From: Sphingobium sp. EP60837 | GTDB taxonomy: Bacteria; Pseudomonadota; Alphaproteobacteria; Sphingomonadales; Sphingomonadaceae | Assembly (NCBI RefSeq): GCF_001658005.1 | Contig: NZ_CP015986.1 | Coordinates: 248,001 to 312,000, forward strand | Direction: 5' to 3' | DNA length: 64,000 nucleotides | Part shown: positions 6,967 to 54,845 of the stretch, one piece after another | How positions within the stretch are numbered: position 1 is the first letter of the stretch | Layout of the letters: each line of letters opens with the position of its first letter | Translations under genes and position numbers: made by a program | The notes under the pieces: model-generated | The model's database searches: none | What the model saw: the letters and a program-made list of their open reading frames with translations, nothing else | Told to the model about the DNA's origin: nothing

Positions 6967-7902
6967 TCAGCGTGCCGCCTTGGCCAGTTGCGCCTCACGC
7001 GCCGCACGCATCTCCGCAAAGTCCTTGCCCGCATGATAGCTGGAACGGGTCAGCGGGCTGGACGCGACCTGCAAAAAGCCCTTAGCGCGCGCAATCGCGG
7101 CATAGGCGTTGAACGCAGCGGGCGTCACAAACTCCATCACCTTGGCATGTTTCGGGGTCGGCTGCAGATATTGGCCCATGGTCAAGAAATCGATGTCGGC
7201 GGAGCGCATGTCGTCCATGACCTGGTGAACTTCCAATCGCTCCTCGCCCAAGCCCAGCATGATGCCCGATTTGGTGAAGATCGAAGGGTCGAGCTTCTTG
7301 ACCGACTCCAGAAGACGCAGCGACGCATAATAGCGCGCACCGGGACGAATGGTCGGGTAGAGCCTCGGCACCGTCTCCAGATTGTGGTTATAGACGTCCG
7401 GCCGCGCAGCCACGATCATCTCGACGGCCCGCTCATGCTTGTTCCGGAAATCTGGCGTCAAAATCTCGATGGTCGTATCCGGAGTCGTGCGACGCAGCGC
7501 CTCGATCACTTTCACGAACTGCGACGCGCCGCCATCGGGTAGGTCGTCCCGATCCACCGAAGTGATGACGATATGTTCGAGCCCCATCTCCGCACAGGCA
7601 TCGGCGAGGTTCTGCGGCTCATTAGGATCGACCTTACGCGGCATGCCTGTCTTGACGTTGCAGAAGGCGCAGGCCCGGGTGCAAACGTCGCCCAGGATCA
7701 TCACCGTCGCATGCTTCTTGGTCCAGCATTCACCGATATTGGGACAGGCCGCTTCTTCGCAGACCGTCGCGAGCCCCTTTTCGCGCATCAGTTTACGCGT
7801 TTCGTGATAGCCTGGGCTGGTCGGCGCCTTGACGCGGATCCAGTCCGGCTTGCGGACACGTTGCGGCTGGGGCGGGACGGGAATAGCGGCACTATCGGTC
7901 AT
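6967..7902 (-). CDS. lipA: Lipoyl synthase LipA
   Basis: Radical SAM enzyme that inserts two sulfurs into octanoyl-protein to make lipoate for the 2-oxoacid dehydrogenases. It has 311 residues. Auxiliary cluster cysteines C48, C53 and C59 and the radical-SAM triad C74, C78 and C81 (CxxxCxxC) are all seen. The C-terminal serine motif ([11 protein letters not shown]) is also present. The ATG at 7902 (MTDSAAIPV) is preferred; the frame stays open further upstream but without similarity to the family. The gene faces away from the carbonic anhydrase gene across 65 bases and is followed at four bases by the Coq10-like gene. Confidence 0.97.
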
Positions 7903-7967
7903 GCGCCCCAAATAGCGACGCAAGCACAGACTTGCCAGCCCCCAGATTGTTGGGCAGAGACTTCGCC

Positions 7968-9633: not shown

Positions 9634-9752
9634 ACATCGCCTGCAGCGGCTTAGACTACACCGCGCCCCTAAGGGATCACCCTAGCTATGCTGTGCACAT
9701 GCGCTCGCCGTGATAGCTGGATGAGCGCGCCAACTTCAGCCCGCAATCATGC

Positions 9753-9781
9753 AAAAAAATGGCCGACCCATTGGGCCGGCC
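9753..9781 (-). terminator. Intrinsic terminator downstream of ettA
   Basis: Read on the minus strand, a 9-bp stem (GGCCGGCCC with GGGTCGGCC, one G-U pair) closes a three-base loop and is followed by A and seven T residues. It lies about 125 bases beyond the ettA stop. On the plus strand the same hairpin has no good T tract, so it is assigned to ettA. Confidence 0.8.
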
Positions 9782-9907
9782 TGAAAGTTTTAGGAGAGGA
9801 TGCCTGAAAGGCACCCCCTTTGTGCAGTGCAGCACGCCACCTCGCAAGTGCGAAAGGCGTAAGCACCATTGCAATCTCTGCAACCGGTTGCCCTACGGCC
9901 GAGCTGA

Positions 9908-20921: not shown

Positions 20922-22193
20922 TCAAAGCGCGTAGTCGATCTGCGCCCAGAATTTCTTGGTGTCGGCATCTCCCGTGAAGCTCGCAATGCCCTGCCGGTCA
21001 TAGTCGGCATATTTGACGAGGGCGCTTAGATGCTTGTCGATCTTCAAGGTCACCTGGGCGTTATATTCATCGCCATAATGGATCGAGAGCCGGTCGCTGC
21101 TGAAGCGGTGGAAGATGAAGGACGCGACCAGCGGCCCCATCTTGCCAACCTTCGGCACGGTATAGGCGATGCCGCCATAATAGTCCTGAATGCCAGTGGT
21201 AGGCGTCGTCAGGAACTTGTCCGCCCAGCCGTTGAACTTGTGCAGCGTGGCAAAGGGCGTCTGAAACGCGAAGCCCGTGGCGCTGCCCAGCGTGGTGGAA
21301 TCGGAACCAAGCAGCTCATAACCGGCCGTCAGCTTGAAGGCGGAAACCTCCAGCCCCAGTTCAGCCGCGACATAGTCGGCCTTATAATCGACCGGGTTCT
21401 TCGCATAATCGCTCTGCCGGGCGTAGCTGGCGAGGTAGCTGAGCTTCACCTTCTTCGCCAGCGGCAGGGCGCCCACGAAGCGCGCGCCATAGGTCTGGCT
21501 GCTATTGCGCAGCAATGCCGCCACCGGCTCATCCTCGTCCACCAGATAGGCAAATCCGGTCAGCGTGCCGAACTTCGTCTTGTAGGAGACGTTGGCGAAG
21601 ACATTGTCGCCGTCGATCTCCGTCGGCCGGTTGACCGATCCGAACTTGCCGCCATCAATGCCCCAGATGGTCCGGGCGGCAATGGCGTAAGTCACATCGA
21701 CCTTCAGGTTCTTCACGCCCATATATTCGACGCGAACGGCATCGAAGGTCTGCTCATTCTGCCGCCAGGCGACAGAGCCCACGAAGCGCTGGTCATCCAG
21801 GTTGATGCGTTGGCGGCCGAGCGTCACGATGAGCGGCTTGGTGCGATATTGGATCTGCACCCGATTTGCTTCGACATTCTCAGGATCGGCGACGATGGGA
21901 TAGAGCGTCTTCCCGTTGACGCCGCTATTATAATCCTCGTTGATCGCCAGCGTGCCTTCACCTTCCACCAATAAGGCGAAGGGGCCGCTCGACAGTTCGC
22001 CACCAGCACGCAGCCGCATCGTGACCGCATTGGCCTCACGATCTTCGACCAGCGGCAACGGTCCGTCCTGCTCAACCATTTCATAGCGCAGCCGCGCCTC
22101 GACGATCGGCTTGAACACAATGTCCTGCGCCAGGGCAGGCGTTGCAACCGTCGCCAGTGCCGACGCCGACAGCAACATCTTCAATCCACGCAT
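20922..22193 (-). CDS. Outer-membrane porin, alginate-export-like family
   Basis: A 423-residue predicted beta-barrel protein. A signal peptide (MRGLKMLLSASALATVATPALA) is followed by alternating amphipathic strands and a final strand ending in YAL, close to the aromatic C-terminus of outer-membrane proteins. The N-terminal KPIVEARLRYEMVEQDG and the LGRQRINLDDQRFVGSVAWRQ motif match the alginate export (AlgE-like) porin family. The start at 22193 has GAGGGGG upstream. It is the last gene of the operon nrtA-nrtB-nrtD-porin, 98 bases after nrtD, and ends at a strong terminator. Context suggests a channel for nitrate or another anion rather than alginate. Confidence 0.85.
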   Translation of the reverse strand: MRGLKMLLSASALATVATPALAQDIVFKPIVEARLRYEMVEQDGPLPLVEDREANAVTMRLRAGGELSSGPFALLVEGEGTLAINEDYNSGVNGKTLYPIVADPENVEANRVQIQYRTKPLIVTLGRQRINLDDQRFVGSVAWRQNEQTFDAVRVEYMGVKNLKVDVTYAIAARTIWGIDGGKFGSVNRPTEIDGDNVFANVSYKTKFGTLTGFAYLVDEDEPVAALLRNSSQTYGARFVGALPLAKKVKLSYLASYARQSDYAKNPVDYKADYVAAELGLEVSAFKLTAGYELLGSDSTTLGSATGFAFQTPFATLHKFNGWADKFLTTPTTGIQDYYGGIAYTVPKVGKMGPLVASFIFHRFSSDRLSIHYGDEYNAQVTLKIDKHLSALVKYADYDRQGIASFTGDADTKKFWAQIDYAL

Positions 22194-22291
22194 AATTCCC
22201 CCTCTTTTGCTCCCGATGGCCTTAAGGCCCTTCAGGGCATCCCCTCTCAATCCCGATATTTTTGATGCCGCCTTGATGAACGGCTTGTCTC

Positions 22292-23095
22292 TCACGCAGC
22301 GAGCGTTGCCGGATTGCGGTAGCGCTCGTGCAGGAAATGGATGACGGCGCTGCGAGCCTCTGCATATTCAGGCATATCGATAGCCTCGATCCGGTTACGC
22401 GGCCGCGCTAGCTCTACAGGCCGGTCTTCTCCGATCCGCGCCGCCGGGCCGTTGGTCATCATGACGACGCGGTCGGCCAACAGCACGGCCTCGTCCACAT
22501 CATGGGTGATCATCAGCACCGTATTGTTGAGCCGCGCCTGCAGATCCATGACCACGTCTTGAAGCGCCGCCCGCGTCAGAGCATCAAGCGCGCCGAACGG
22601 CTCGTCCATCAGCAGCACGCGCGGGTTCATCGCTATCGCGCGGGCAATGCCAACGCGCTGCTTCATGCCTCCCGACAATTCGCCCGGCCTTTTCCCGGCG
22701 GCATGGGTCATCTGGACCAACTCCAGATTGTGCATGACCCAGTCCCTGCGCTCTGCCTTGCTCTTGCCTGCCGAAGTCTTATCGACCGCCAGGCGGACAT
22801 TTTCCTCGACGGTCAGCCAAGGCAGCAGCGAATGATCCTGGAAGACCACCGCACGGTCCGGCCCCGGAGCGTCCACCAGATCCCCATCCAGGAAGATCGC
22901 CCCGCGGGTCGGCTTGACCAGGCCCGCGACGGCATTGAGCAGGGTTGACTTACCGCAGCCCGAATGACCGATCAACGCTACGAACTGCCCCTTGTCCACC
23001 TCAAGGTCGATGTGGTCCAGCGCGCAGAAACGCCCGGCCTTGGTGGGAAATTCGACGGTGATGCCCTCAAGCGCGAGATAGCTACGCTGTTTCAT
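22292..23095 (-). CDS. nrtD: Nitrate/sulfonate-type ABC transporter ATPase
   Basis: A 267-residue ATP-binding subunit of the NrtD/SsuB/TauB group. Walker [10 protein letters not shown], signature [14 protein letters not shown] and Walker [13 protein letters not shown] are present, followed by the H-loop ITHDVDEA. No extra NrtA-like C-terminal domain is attached, so it is the NrtD rather than NrtC form. The start MKQRSYLAL at 23095 was chosen over upstream codons that run into nrtB. It lies 16 bases after nrtB. The nitrate substrate is inferred from NrtA and the leader RNA. Confidence 0.9.
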
Positions 23096-23111
23096 GAAAC
23101 TGCCCTCCCCT

Positions 23112-24071
23112 TCAGCCTGCGCGGCCGATGACGCGACCCGCAAAGGCGACGATGCGGTCCAGTGTGAAGCCGACCAAGCCGATCCAGATCAGCGCGACGA
23201 TCGTGTCGGTGAGCAAAGAACTGTTGTAGCTGTCCCAGATGAAGAAGCCGACGCCGGTGCCACCCTGCACCATCTCGGCCGCCACGATCGCCAGCCAGCT
23301 CATGCCCACGCCGATCCGCAGGCCGGTGAACATGTGCGGCACTGTTGCAGGCAGCATGATCCGCACGAAATATTCGACGGGATTAAGCGCCAGTACCTTG
23401 GCCACGTTGCGATAGGCCACTGGAATGGTCTGAACGCCTGCCGCCGTGTTCAGAATAACCGGCCAAATAGCCGTGATGAAGATCAGGAAGATCGCCGATG
23501 GCTGCGCTTGTTGAAAGATCGCGAGGCTGATTGGCAGCCAGGCGAGCGGCGGCACCGTGCGCAGCACCTGAAACAAGGGATCGAGCGCGCGGAAGGCAAA
23601 GACGCTTTGCCCGATCAGGATGCCCAGCGCCACGCCGACGATCGCCGCGAGGCTGTAACCGATGAGGACGCGGCTGAGGCTGGTCAACACATGGCCGGCA
23701 ATGCCCACATCGCCCCCATCCTGGATGCTGAAATGGGTGAGACCGATCTCAACGCCCTTGAAAGGATGGGTGATGACGTCATGGCTTTCCTGCCAGACCT
23801 TCACCGGGCTGGGGAAAGTCGCCTCCGGCGATCCGCACAGAAATTGCCAGAACAGCAGCAGCGCGCCAATCATGACCATGGTCGGCAACACGGCGGCAAC
23901 TACCGCGCGCGCCTTGCTCACCAACGGATGCACGGGCGCGGCAACTGGCTCGAAGCTCCGCCTTGCGATCGCTCCTTCGGGATAGGGTACGATGACCCCC
24001 AACTCGGTCGCGGCGCCGCCGGACGATACCGGCGGCCCTCCATTCCTGCTGTTGGGCGATGGCGAAGCCAT
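23112..24071 (-). CDS. nrtB: Nitrate ABC transporter permease
   Basis: A 319-residue permease of the binding-protein-dependent family. A cytoplasmic Pro/Ala-rich N-terminus (about 1-55) precedes about six transmembrane segments. The cytoplasmic EAA-type loop and the AEMVQGGTGVGFFIWD segment are typical of NrtB/SsuC. The ATG at 24071 has GGAAGGAG six bases upstream; an in-frame TTG-ATG pair further up overlaps the end of nrtA and is less likely. It lies between nrtA and nrtD and forms the membrane channel. Confidence 0.9.
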   Translation of the reverse strand: MASPSPNSRNGGPPVSSGGAATELGVIVPYPEGAIARRSFEPVAAPVHPLVSKARAVVAAVLPTMVMIGALLLFWQFLCGSPEATFPSPVKVWQESHDVITHPFKGVEIGLTHFSIQDGGDVGIAGHVLTSLSRVLIGYSLAAIVGVALGILIGQSVFAFRALDPLFQVLRTVPPLAWLPISLAIFQQAQPSAIFLIFITAIWPVILNTAAGVQTIPVAYRNVAKVLALNPVEYFVRIMLPATVPHMFTGLRIGVGMSWLAIVAAEMVQGGTGVGFFIWDSYNSSLLTDTIVALIWIGLVGFTLDRIVAFAGRVIGRAG

Positions 24072-24088
24072 GGCTTTCTCCTTCCTCA

Positions 24089-25369
24089 TCAAACGCGCTT
24101 GATCGCCAGGCTGGCCAGATAAGCCTTGGGATTAGCCGGATCGAACTTCTTGCCGTCGAAGAATTTCTCGACGCCGCGGCTGTCGCTCGCCGGGCCCTTG
24201 CCGCCCAGCATCGCCGCTGCCTTGCGCCAAATGTCGGAGCGGTTGACCTTGCCGATTACGCCCTTGGTATCGAGCGACATGGGCAGCTTGCCCCAGCGCT
24301 GGTTTTCCGTAAGGAACCACAGGTCGTGGCTCTTGTACGGGAAGGACGCGTAGCCATCGAAGAACTTCATCTTGAAGGCTGCGTTCGGGAATTTGCGCCC
24401 GTCGCCCATGTTGAAATTGCCCTGTAGGCGGTCAGCGATGTCGGTGATGGGGCATTTGAGATAATCGCGGCCCGCGATCGTGCCCGCCAGCCGGGTTATG
24501 TTACCTGGATTGTCCGCCCAACGCTGCGCCTCGATGATTGCCGCTGTGATCGCCAAAGCCGCCCGTGGGTTCTTCGCCACCCAATCGGACCGCATGGCGA
24601 AGCTCTTTTCGGGATGGTTCATCCACATCTGGCCAGTCGAAACCGCCGTATAGCCCAGATTCTGCGCCACCAGCTGGTCGTTCCACGGTTCGCCGACGCA
24701 GAAGGCGTCCATCGTGTCCGCCTTCATGTTCGCCACCATCTGCGGCGGCGGAACAGTGATCAGTTCGATATCCTTGTCCGGATCGATGCCGCCCGCCGCC
24801 AGCCAGTAGCGGATCCACATATCATGCGTGCCGCCGGGGAAGGTCATGGCCATGGTGATCTTCTTGCCAGCGGCCTTCCGCTGAGCGATCACGCCCTTCA
24901 TCTTCGCCGCGCTGAGGTCCGCTTTGGCGCCCAGATATTCCTTGGAAACCGAGATCGCCTGACCGTTGACGTTCATGCGGGCCAGGATGCTCATGGGCGT
25001 CGCCTTGCCGATCGCACCCAGCGTCAGGAGATACGGCATGGGCGTGAGGATATGCGCGCCATCAATGCCGCCACCGCCGCTGCCTAGCACCAGATTATCG
25101 CGCGTCGCACCCCAACTGGCCTGCTTCGCCACCTGCACGTCAGGCAGGCCATATTTGGCGAACAAGCCCAATTCCTTGGCAATGATAACCGGCGCCGCGT
25201 CGGTCAGGGCGATGAAGCCCAACTTCGCGCCGGTGACTTCAGGTCCCGCTCCTGCAGCGAATGCGCCGGATGGAAACGCCTGATGCACCGCAGCAAAAAG
25301 CGCGGCAGTGCCCCCGGTCTTCAGCGCTCCACGGCGGTTGACGCCTTTTGGATTGTCCCCCTCTGCCAT
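24089..25369 (-). CDS. nrtA: Nitrate ABC transporter substrate-binding protein, Tat-exported
   Basis: A 426-residue NrtA-family periplasmic binding protein. The N-terminus has a twin-arginine signal (NRRGALKTGG then a hydrophobic Ala-rich stretch). The mature protein has the NrtA-type stretches GFIALTDAAPVIIAKELGLF, KQASWGATRDNL and VGEPWNDQLV. Export folded through Tat is usual for NrtA. AAGGA lies nine bases before the ATG. It is the first gene of the operon and is preceded by a long untranslated leader with hairpins and an intrinsic terminator, a sign of transcription attenuation. Confidence 0.93.
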   Translation of the reverse strand: MAEGDNPKGVNRRGALKTGGTAALFAAVHQAFPSGAFAAGAGPEVTGAKLGFIALTDAAPVIIAKELGLFAKYGLPDVQVAKQASWGATRDNLVLGSGGGGIDGAHILTPMPYLLTLGAIGKATPMSILARMNVNGQAISVSKEYLGAKADLSAAKMKGVIAQRKAAGKKITMAMTFPGGTHDMWIRYWLAAGGIDPDKDIELITVPPPQMVANMKADTMDAFCVGEPWNDQLVAQNLGYTAVSTGQMWMNHPEKSFAMRSDWVAKNPRAALAITAAIIEAQRWADNPGNITRLAGTIAGRDYLKCPITDIADRLQGNFNMGDGRKFPNAAFKMKFFDGYASFPYKSHDLWFLTENQRWGKLPMSLDTKGVIGKVNRSDIWRKAAAMLGGKGPASDSRGVEKFFDGKKFDPANPKAYLASLAIKRV

Positions 25370-25507
25370 TCCCCAATGTCCTTCCCTGTTCGATCATCCG
25401 CGCTGCGAAAGGCACGCAGCCAGCCATTCGCCGAAGCACAGTCCGGCGGGTGTAAGATAATGATGGAGGTCCGCGGCGCGCATTCGCGTCCGCGTTGAAA
25501 ACATAAT

Positions 25508-25552
25508 AAAAAAGCCGCCTGGACGCGGTCCGTTAAGACCAGTCCGGGCGGC
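25508..25552 (-). terminator. Leader (attenuator) terminator upstream of nrtA
   Basis: Read on the minus strand: GCCGCC, C, GGAC, T, GGTC, a six-base loop, GACC, GC, GTCC, A, GGCGGC, then six T residues. This is a long, three-part, nearly perfect stem with a U tract. It is located 139 bases before the nrtA ATG and after the two hexaloop hairpins. With no coding sequence between it and the hairpins, it can only act as a leader terminator. Confidence 0.85.
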
Positions 25553-25573
25553 GTCATTGCCGATTTCGATCCT

Positions 25574-25641
25574 GTAGGACCGAAGCTGGTTCCTACCGTC
25601 ATCGGCGGATCCAACCTATGTGCCGAAGCGTCCCTGCTTCG
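25574..25641 (-). promoter_or_regulatory. Tandem hexaloop hairpins, candidate ANTAR (NasT/NasR) antitermination RNA
   Basis: Two hairpins in the nrtA leader, 5' to the attenuator. The first (25641 to 25624) is CGAAGC, loop AGGGAC, GCTTCG: a perfect 6-bp stem with a hexaloop having A at position 1 and G at position 4. The second (25596 to 25574) is GTAGG, bulged A, ACC, loop AGCTTC, GGT, CCTAC: a hexaloop with A at 1 but T at 4. Tandem hexaloop hairpins before a terminator are the known target of ANTAR-domain antiterminators such as NasR and NasT in nitrate operons (established knowledge). The nasST genes are not in this window. Confidence 0.65.
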
Positions 25642-25692
25642 ATACCTCTAAAGCTGTCACCGATTCGTCCGAGTCGCAAGCAAAATTTTTGC

Positions 25693-25709
25693 GTTGCACA
25701 AAATGCAAC
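25693..25709. promoter_or_regulatory. Palindrome GTTGCA-N5-TGCAAC, candidate operator
   Basis: Perfect 6-5-6 inverted repeat in the divergent spacer between nrtA and the PAP2 gene, about 50 bases upstream of the first leader hairpin. It is reminiscent of, but not identical to, NtrC-type TGCAC-N-GTGCA sites. Binding protein unknown. Confidence 0.4.
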
Positions 25710-54499: not shown

Positions 54500-54575
54500 T
54501 GGTGGAGCCTAGCGGGATCGAACCGCTGACCTCCTGCATGCCATGCAGGCGCTCTCCCAGCTGAGCTAAGGCCCC
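54500..54575 (-). tRNA. tRNA-Ala (anticodon GGC), copy 1
   Basis: Complete cloverleaf on the minus strand. Acceptor GGGGCCT pairs with AGGCTCC (one G-U pair), anticodon loop ATGGCAT gives GGC, T arm has GGTTCGATCCC, CCA is encoded. Confidence 0.95.
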
Positions 54576-54769: not shown

Positions 54770-54845
54770 TGGTGGAGCCTAGCGGGATCGAACCGCTGAC
54801 CTCCTGCATGCCATGCAGGCGCTCTCCCAGCTGAGCTAAGGCCCC
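54770..54845 (-). tRNA. tRNA-Ala (anticodon GGC), copy 2
   Basis: Same 76-base sequence as the copy at 54500, on the same strand, 194 bases apart. The spacer holds no gene. The FYDLN-family gene lies 88 bases upstream and may share a transcript. Confidence 0.95.

Follow-up and report, generated by a model that had tools for sequence, protein, structure and literature searches.

The RNA targets of ANTAR proteins carry two hairpins with six-nucleotide loops (hexaloops) bearing A at position 1 and G at position 4 (A1/G4), the second of which overlaps an intrinsic terminator (Ramesh et al. 2012, PMC3369931). Such dual-hexaloop RNAs include those of EutV (eut), NasR (nasF) and AmiR (amiE) (PMC3369931; for NasR see PMC7496416, and further PMC8164766). 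EutV contacts the base G4 and makes no specific contact to A1, and its structure points to a dimer that occupies a single hexaloop at a time and moves from P1 to P2 (Walshe et al. 2022, PMC8934654). The linkers of Enterococcus faecalis eut measure 5–12 nt (Ramesh 2012, PMC3369931); induction fell drastically with linkers of 3 or 14 nt, and the addition of 20 nt abolished antitermination in vitro (PMC8934654, PMC3369931). In the Paracoccus denitrificans nas system (PMC3795266, PMC5424462) and the Bradyrhizobium nosR/nas system (PMC6759348), NasT and NasS are found with nitrate genes and a hairpin leader that is thought to terminate transcription; in the Paracoccus leader two hairpins, HI and HII, were mutated (PMC3795266, PMC5424462). 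Nitrate frees NasT from NasS (PMC3795266, PMC5424462, PMC6759348), and one of these three reports puts the NasT oligomer at ~130 kDa, a mass that roughly fits a hexamer.

Here we describe the leader of the nrtA nitrate-uptake operon in a 64-kb stretch of Sphingobium DNA (the window). It resembles the dual-hexaloop RNAs in its A1/G4 hexaloops, in the predicted exclusivity of P2 and terminator, in the nitrogen genes downstream and in the ANTAR protein encoded by the genome, and it resembles the Paracoccus and Bradyrhizobium systems in the features named above. Unlike the latter, the nrtA operon lies ~729 kb from nasTS and its leader carries three R1/G4 hexaloops. The real departures from the ANTAR pattern are these three hexaloops in place of two, a relaxed A1 in the middle loop, which begins with G, and a linker filled with hairpins, HL1 and P2 being 60 nt apart as plain sequence in contrast to the short linkers of E. 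faecalis eut. EutX/Rli55 likewise combines more than two G4 hexaloops in a single molecule, but it is a small RNA that sequesters EutV and not an operon leader (PMC8934654). By sequence evidence the nrtA leader is a NasT leader of a known kind, and its three-hexaloop form, as predicted from sequence, recurs in the nrtA and nirB leaders of Sphingomonadaceae; among the open-access papers listed, none described a leader with a third hexaloop or a NasT leader from a sphingomonad.

Anatomy and folding of the nrtA leader

Transcription from the minus strand yields, in order, HL1, HL2, M2, P2, the terminator and six T, followed by nrtA (Table 1), so that the leader is predicted to comprise three hexaloops and a spacer hairpin, M2. 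The HL1 stem has seven uninterrupted pairs, the outermost being U-G, the HL2 stem six pairs with a bulge, and the P2 stem only 4 bp. Positions 25552-25549 are common to P2 and the terminator, GCCG being both the 3' arm of P2 and the 5' start of the terminator. The hairpin was taken as P2 because its loop is A1/G4 and its 3' arm starts the terminator. Set against the definition of an ANTAR target, which asks for two or more hexaloop hairpins whose stems have at least 3 bp, the leader supplies HL1, HL2 and P2; HL1 (AGGGAC) and P2 (AATGAC) have both A1 and G4, HL2 (GATGAC) has G4 only, and P2 is the hairpin that overlaps the intrinsic terminator.

Table 1. Features of the nrtA leader and operon, with related loci in the same genome (window positions unless a locus or contig is named)
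Feature	Position	Strand	Sequence or family	Basis or remark
Candidate promoter	25654..25680	-	CTTGCGAC ... GTGACAG	By-eye similarity, leaders L018, L040, L098
HL1	25623..25642	-	TCGAAGC-AGGGAC-GCTTCGG, A1 + G4	Consensus fold, pair counts
HL2, middle hexaloop hairpin with outer stem	25584..25616	-		Alignment and consensus fold, compensatory pairs
HL2 core	25591..25609	-	TCCGCC-GATGAC-GGTaGGA, G1 + G4	
AGCTTC-loop hairpin	25574..25596	-		Alternative pairing, not an ANTAR hexaloop
M2 linker hairpin	25566..25583	-	TCGGTCC-TACA-GGATCGA	Fills the HL2-P2 gap; consensus and constrained folds
P2 (antiterminator) hairpin	25549..25562	-	CGGC-AATGAC-GCCG, A1 + G4	
Intrinsic terminator stem	25514..25552	-	GCCGCCcGGACtGGTC...GACCgcGTCCaGGCGGC	GC-rich, interrupted
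Terminator T tract	25508..25513	-	Six T	
nrtA, nitrate ABC transporter substrate-binding protein	24089..25369	-	Pfam NMT1_2	
nrtB, permease	23112..24092	-	TIGR01183	281.8 bits, cut-off 209.05; longest ORF
nrtC/D, ATPase	22292..23143	-	TIGR01184	327.6 bits, cut-off 291.8; longest ORF
Outer-membrane protein	20922..22295	-	Alginate_exp	Last gene of apparent operon
nasT	L001:1468-2133			Overlaps nasS by 4 nt
nasS	L001:269-1471			
nirB three-hexaloop leader	L002 ~7800-7930; G000:C1 999845-999930	-		~726 kb from nrtA leader

The original prediction, made from the sequence alone, had placed upstream of nrtA a perfect AGGGAC hairpin, then a long GC-rich stem with six T, in a leader free of coding sequence. 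The AGGGAC hairpin is HL1, and the stem and T tract are those of the terminator, the stem being interrupted; by eye, none of the short ORFs overlapping the leader is gene-like, and they show no notable feature that would point to leader-peptide attenuation. A simple consensus terminator scan did not detect the nrtA terminator, and no Rfam family matched the leader at its gathering score (highest score 16.4 bits, where 60 is required). The pattern CGGCAATGACGCCG, at two mismatches or fewer, occurs five times in the window against 2.1 expected and is not special.

Computed folds are consistent with this anatomy. The region 25480-25680 folds better than its shuffles (z −3.10; 2 of 200 equal it), and RNAalifold, applied to the five closest nrtA leaders, recovered HL1, HL2, M2 and the terminator unprompted in its consensus, with both-sides changes in 10 of 42 pairs and an unfavourable covariation term of +1.2. 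The free energy of the terminator is −27.4 kcal/mol against −5.2 kcal/mol for P2 alone; the free leader adopts the terminator fold at −65.2 kcal/mol, compared with −60.3 kcal/mol when P2 is forced, and a transcript cut off at the end of P2 forms the P2 hairpin. As drawn from the sequence, P2 and the terminator are mutually exclusive. A possible weakness is that G1 and C6 of the window HL2 can pair, leaving a tetraloop.

If HL2 and M2 fold, a coordinate count leaves ~6 nt between HL1 and HL2 and 2–4 nt between M2 and P2. Constrained folds of 23 leaders revealed that 11 of the 12 with short HL2-P2 spacing (31–34 nt, loop to loop) lack a linker hairpin, and that 10 of the 11 with long spacing (42–60 nt) possess one, with 2–5 nt beyond it left unpaired. 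The two leaders that break this pattern are L005 and L011, and in L018 and L113 some of the linker is paired to other sequence. Compared with dinucleotide shuffles, nine of the 11 long linkers were equalled in at most 5 of 200 cases (L006 in 22, L011 in 146), and none of 200 shuffles folded as well as the window linker (z −3.42). These folds suggest that M2 would act as a spacer, keeping HL2 and P2 close despite the long linker.

The nrtA operon and the NasS-NasT pair

The ORFs of the nitrate ABC operon overlap downstream of nrtA on the minus strand, and, with 90% NrtA identity, the closest named relatives in the collections belong to Sphingobium. The Alginate_exp protein that ends the operon is perhaps a nitrate porin; in several relatives the ORF ending just 5' of nirB resembles it by eye. 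The candidate promoter upstream of HL1 is a likely one, graded weak because a sigma-70 consensus scan of the leader region detected no promoter there. A palindrome, YTGC-N3-GCRA, lies upstream of many nitrate leaders: its strict form occurs in 15 of 39 (7 of 19 nrtA and 8 of 20 nirB leaders, 11 of the 15 being of the sister type defined below) against ~0.29 expected from mononucleotide shuffles. The window holds a near form only (GTGCAACGCAA, 25689-25699, minus strand), and the palindrome is possibly a binding site for some regulator. Elsewhere in the window are a suhB/mmgR small RNA (9746-9819, minus strand; Rfam RF00519, 49.3 bits) and two tRNA genes with equal scores, 270 nt apart (54503-54575 and 54773-54845, minus strand), perhaps a tandem duplicate.

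A single ANTAR gene, nasT, was found in the genome (PF03861, E 1.4e-20), and the receiver-like plus ANTAR protein that it encodes adjoins an NrtA-like NasS, the arrangement expected of a NasS-NasT two-component regulator. Over 403 aligned columns NasS and NrtA share 28% identity, and the match of NasS to SsuA_fam falls below the cut-off. Residues 29-211 of the 221 of NasT match the structures 1s8n and 6wsh, which we take to be Rv1626 and EutV. NasT is identical to EutV at the contacts Arg142, Lys143, Lys149, Glu160, Tyr164 and Met172 and has Arg for Lys147, a comparison that uses an inferred +2 numbering offset (contacts from PMC8934654). In a sample of 149 genomes of the family, 47 of which have nirB and 50 an ANTAR protein, ANTAR accompanies nirB in 47 of 47 genomes and occurs in 3 of the 102 that lack it; ANTAR is likewise present in each of the 15 genomes in which nrtA was matched at E 1e-60. 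With nasT and nasS present and the hairpins kept in relatives, the original reading of the nitrate-uptake leader as an ANTAR antitermination switch is supported.

Three hexaloops in related nrtA and nirB leaders

In the same genome, the leader of nirB, which lies between a narK-like gene and nirB in the cluster nasT-nasS-narK-nirB-nasC-cobA, has the same build as the nrtA leader, with loops AAGGTT, ATGGAC and AAAGCC. For comparison across relatives, 39 leaders with P2 were collected, from 19 of 20 nrtA loci (L010 has no upstream sequence) and from 20 of the 30 nirB loci fetched out of 48 places found; the other ten nirB loci have no P2 and terminator within 330 nt upstream. They were divided, after inspection, into 27 leaders of the window (triple) type and 12 of a sister type. 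G4 constancy in the hand-set leaders is partly a matter of choice, since the P2 anchors of the 19 nrtA leaders and the HL2 strings compared were set by hand. Unforced evidence for G4 in HL2 comes from alignments of 12 nrtA and 7 nirB leaders, where this G is invariant. The 12 aligned nrtA leaders of the window type (of 13; L011 was left out) all have the HL2 core CC-R..G..-GG and the P2 loop A..G.., with invariant columns at CC...G..GG in HL2, at C-A..G..-GC in P2 and at the terminator end; the unaligned L011 has G1 in P2. In HL2, G1 is found in the window and in several relatives (the nirB leaders of L103, L110, L116 and L117).

In the 99 nt upstream of P2, the 27 window-type leaders hold 45 hexaloops with stems of at least 5 bp, of which 36 have G4 (base frequency of G 0.31) and 29 have A1 and G4, against a fraction of ~0.07 expected from base frequencies (A 0.22, G 0.31). 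Two non-overlapping upstream hexaloops occur in 19 of the 27 and in 1 of the 12 sister-type leaders. A strict search for two R1/G4 hexaloops 27–38 nt apart upstream of P2 found them in 19 of 27 leaders, with 0.1 expected from dinucleotide shuffles, and in none of the 12 sister-type leaders (0.03 expected); pooled, the count is 19 of 39 against ~0.13, the fairer figure because the types were split after inspection. In 18 of the 19 strict pairs the hexaloops lie 29–36 nt apart. A relaxed search found two R1/G4 hexaloops in 24 of 27 leaders (0.53 expected) and in 1 of the 12 sister-type leaders (0.18 expected), although the pair in L120 looks mis-assigned. Eight of the 27 were missed by the strict search; five of these pass the relaxed one and three (L100, L103, L118) fail both. 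The HL2 of L040 in both searches and the relaxed HL1 of L102 and L110 differ from the hexaloops otherwise named, and the 45-nt spacing of L099 is a greedy mis-pick (31 nt in the relaxed search). Sister-type leaders mostly have one upstream R1/G4 hexaloop (10 of 12), with none in one and two in another. In other taxa, where P2 was located in 30 of 78 nrtA leaders examined, two upstream R1/G4 hexaloops occur in 4 of the 30 (L032, L041, L078, L092), which raises the possibility that the three-hexaloop form evolved more than once.

The same counts bear on a simpler reading, namely that this is an ordinary two-hexaloop ANTAR leader in which HL2 and P2, or HL1 and P2, do the work and the extra hairpin is a spare or a relic. 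The known motif requires only two hexaloops, the columns 5' of P2 that are invariant in the 12-leader alignment fall in HL2, the sister type usually manages with one upstream R1/G4 hexaloop, and loop position 1 of HL2 in the window is G rather than A. Yet upstream pairs recur, by both strict and relaxed counts, in nrtA and nirB leaders alike, their spacing is narrow, and retention of G4 is unexpected in a relic; we regard this reading as quite possible but doubtful.

The terminated leader might instead double as a NasT sponge, in the manner of EutX in Enterococcus, which adds an extra G4 hexaloop to the dual motif (PMC8934654). Terminated nrtA and nirB leaders would each hold two hexaloops upstream of P2, but their position directly 5' of an operon is that of a leader, and a sponge function seems improbable.

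Covariation of the hairpins in relatives, a check named with the original prediction, is clear in nirB leaders and modest in the five closest nrtA leaders. Seven nirB leaders, picked from 14 of the window type for their constant spacing, pair in 112 of 112 cells, and their covariation score was reached by none of 500 shuffles; with an eighth, misaligned leader added, pairing was 93.0% and 11 of 500 shuffles reached the score. In the five nrtA leaders, 29 of 500 shuffles reached it, and the AGCTTC hairpin did no worse (23 of 500). That hairpin had been drawn as the second hexaloop in the original prediction, which caught HL1 and the terminator but misdrew the second hairpin and missed both HL2 and P2 with its AATGAC loop. 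The AGCTTC pairing can form, with 80% of cells paired in the five leaders and four pairs changed on both sides, but it clashes with two hairpins preferred by the alignment consensus. Its loop position 4 reads T, T, C, C and A in the five leaders (window included), never G; it does not overlap the terminator, and a better P2 is present, which makes an AGGGAC P1 followed by AGCTTC as a variant P2 very improbable. The departure of AGCTTC from A1/G4 had been read as the sign of a variant, and it is no evidence for one because the AGCTTC hairpin is not P2. A simple terminator, or another kind of attenuator independent of NasT, which the blank Rfam result might favour, is scarcely credible given the conserved hexaloops, the P2 overlap and the co-occurrence of ANTAR with nirB and nrtA.

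Sequence searches with a model (R1) built only from the seven nirB leaders gave mixed results. In the window the nrtA leader ranks first, weakly (14.0 bits, E 0.12), ahead of an unrelated match at 13.5 bits, and in a whole-genome search it was absent from the ten matches. The strong match on the genome's own nirB leader is by construction, as this leader is among the seven. Nine low-scoring genome matches (L132-L140, 14.7 to 21.9 bits) were rejected as chance: in the 80 nt 3' of each, assuming the match to be centred in its locus, only L136 has a five-T run, and no overlap of a P2 with a terminator was seen by eye. On 13 nrtA loci of the window type (own included), matches overlap the leader in 11, with E from 0.00035 to 1.9, and equally good matches lie outside leaders, as in L016 (19.6 bits). 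In the family, 10 of 149 genomes match at E 0.01; the seven strong matches are the training leaders themselves, for which reason the model is no regulon search, and two of the three weak ones are in genomes without an ANTAR match. One match, L147 (G114:C1:1981884-1981952, 34.2 bits), lies ~1.4 kb 5' of nirB, in a genome whose nirB locus (L106) yielded no leader immediately in front of the gene, so in some species the leader may precede an upstream gene of the nirB operon.

A model of the switch and its implications

Taken together, three R1/G4 hexaloops, the exclusivity of P2 and terminator, conservation and the nasTS genes support, at the level of sequence, a model to which we assign a probability of roughly three in four: the nrtA leader would be a transcription-antitermination switch worked by NasT, with HL1 and HL2 loaded successively and M2 as spacer. 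Without nitrate, NasS would hold NasT, as is known in Paracoccus; polymerase would make HL1, HL2, M2 and P2, the stronger terminator would capture the 3' arm of P2, and transcription would stop at the T tract. With nitrate, NasS would release NasT, which would bind the hexaloops through G4 so that P2 stays folded and polymerase continues into nrtABC and the porin-like gene. HL1 and HL2 would then load NasT one after the other and pass it on to P2.

A more specific version is put forward tentatively, as something that may well not hold: a three-step ANTAR relay in sphingomonad nitrate leaders, in which linker hairpins are spacers that preserve the geometry. NasT would load on HL1, pass to or cooperate on HL2 ~33 nt later, and be delivered to P2 as P2 leaves the polymerase; a higher NasT oligomer could possibly hold all three loops.

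There is no settled account of how ANTAR proteins employ two hairpins, and a family with three hexaloops at nearly constant spacing, beside a two-hexaloop sister type, offers a test of successive binding by deletion or movement of single hairpins. G4 is kept where A1 is not, matching the prediction from the EutV crystal contacts. Leaders of this kind may be drawn wrongly or overlooked by searches that demand two adjacent A1/G4 hairpins and a short linker. If the relay is true, the number of loading hexaloops would be a tunable setting of the switch.
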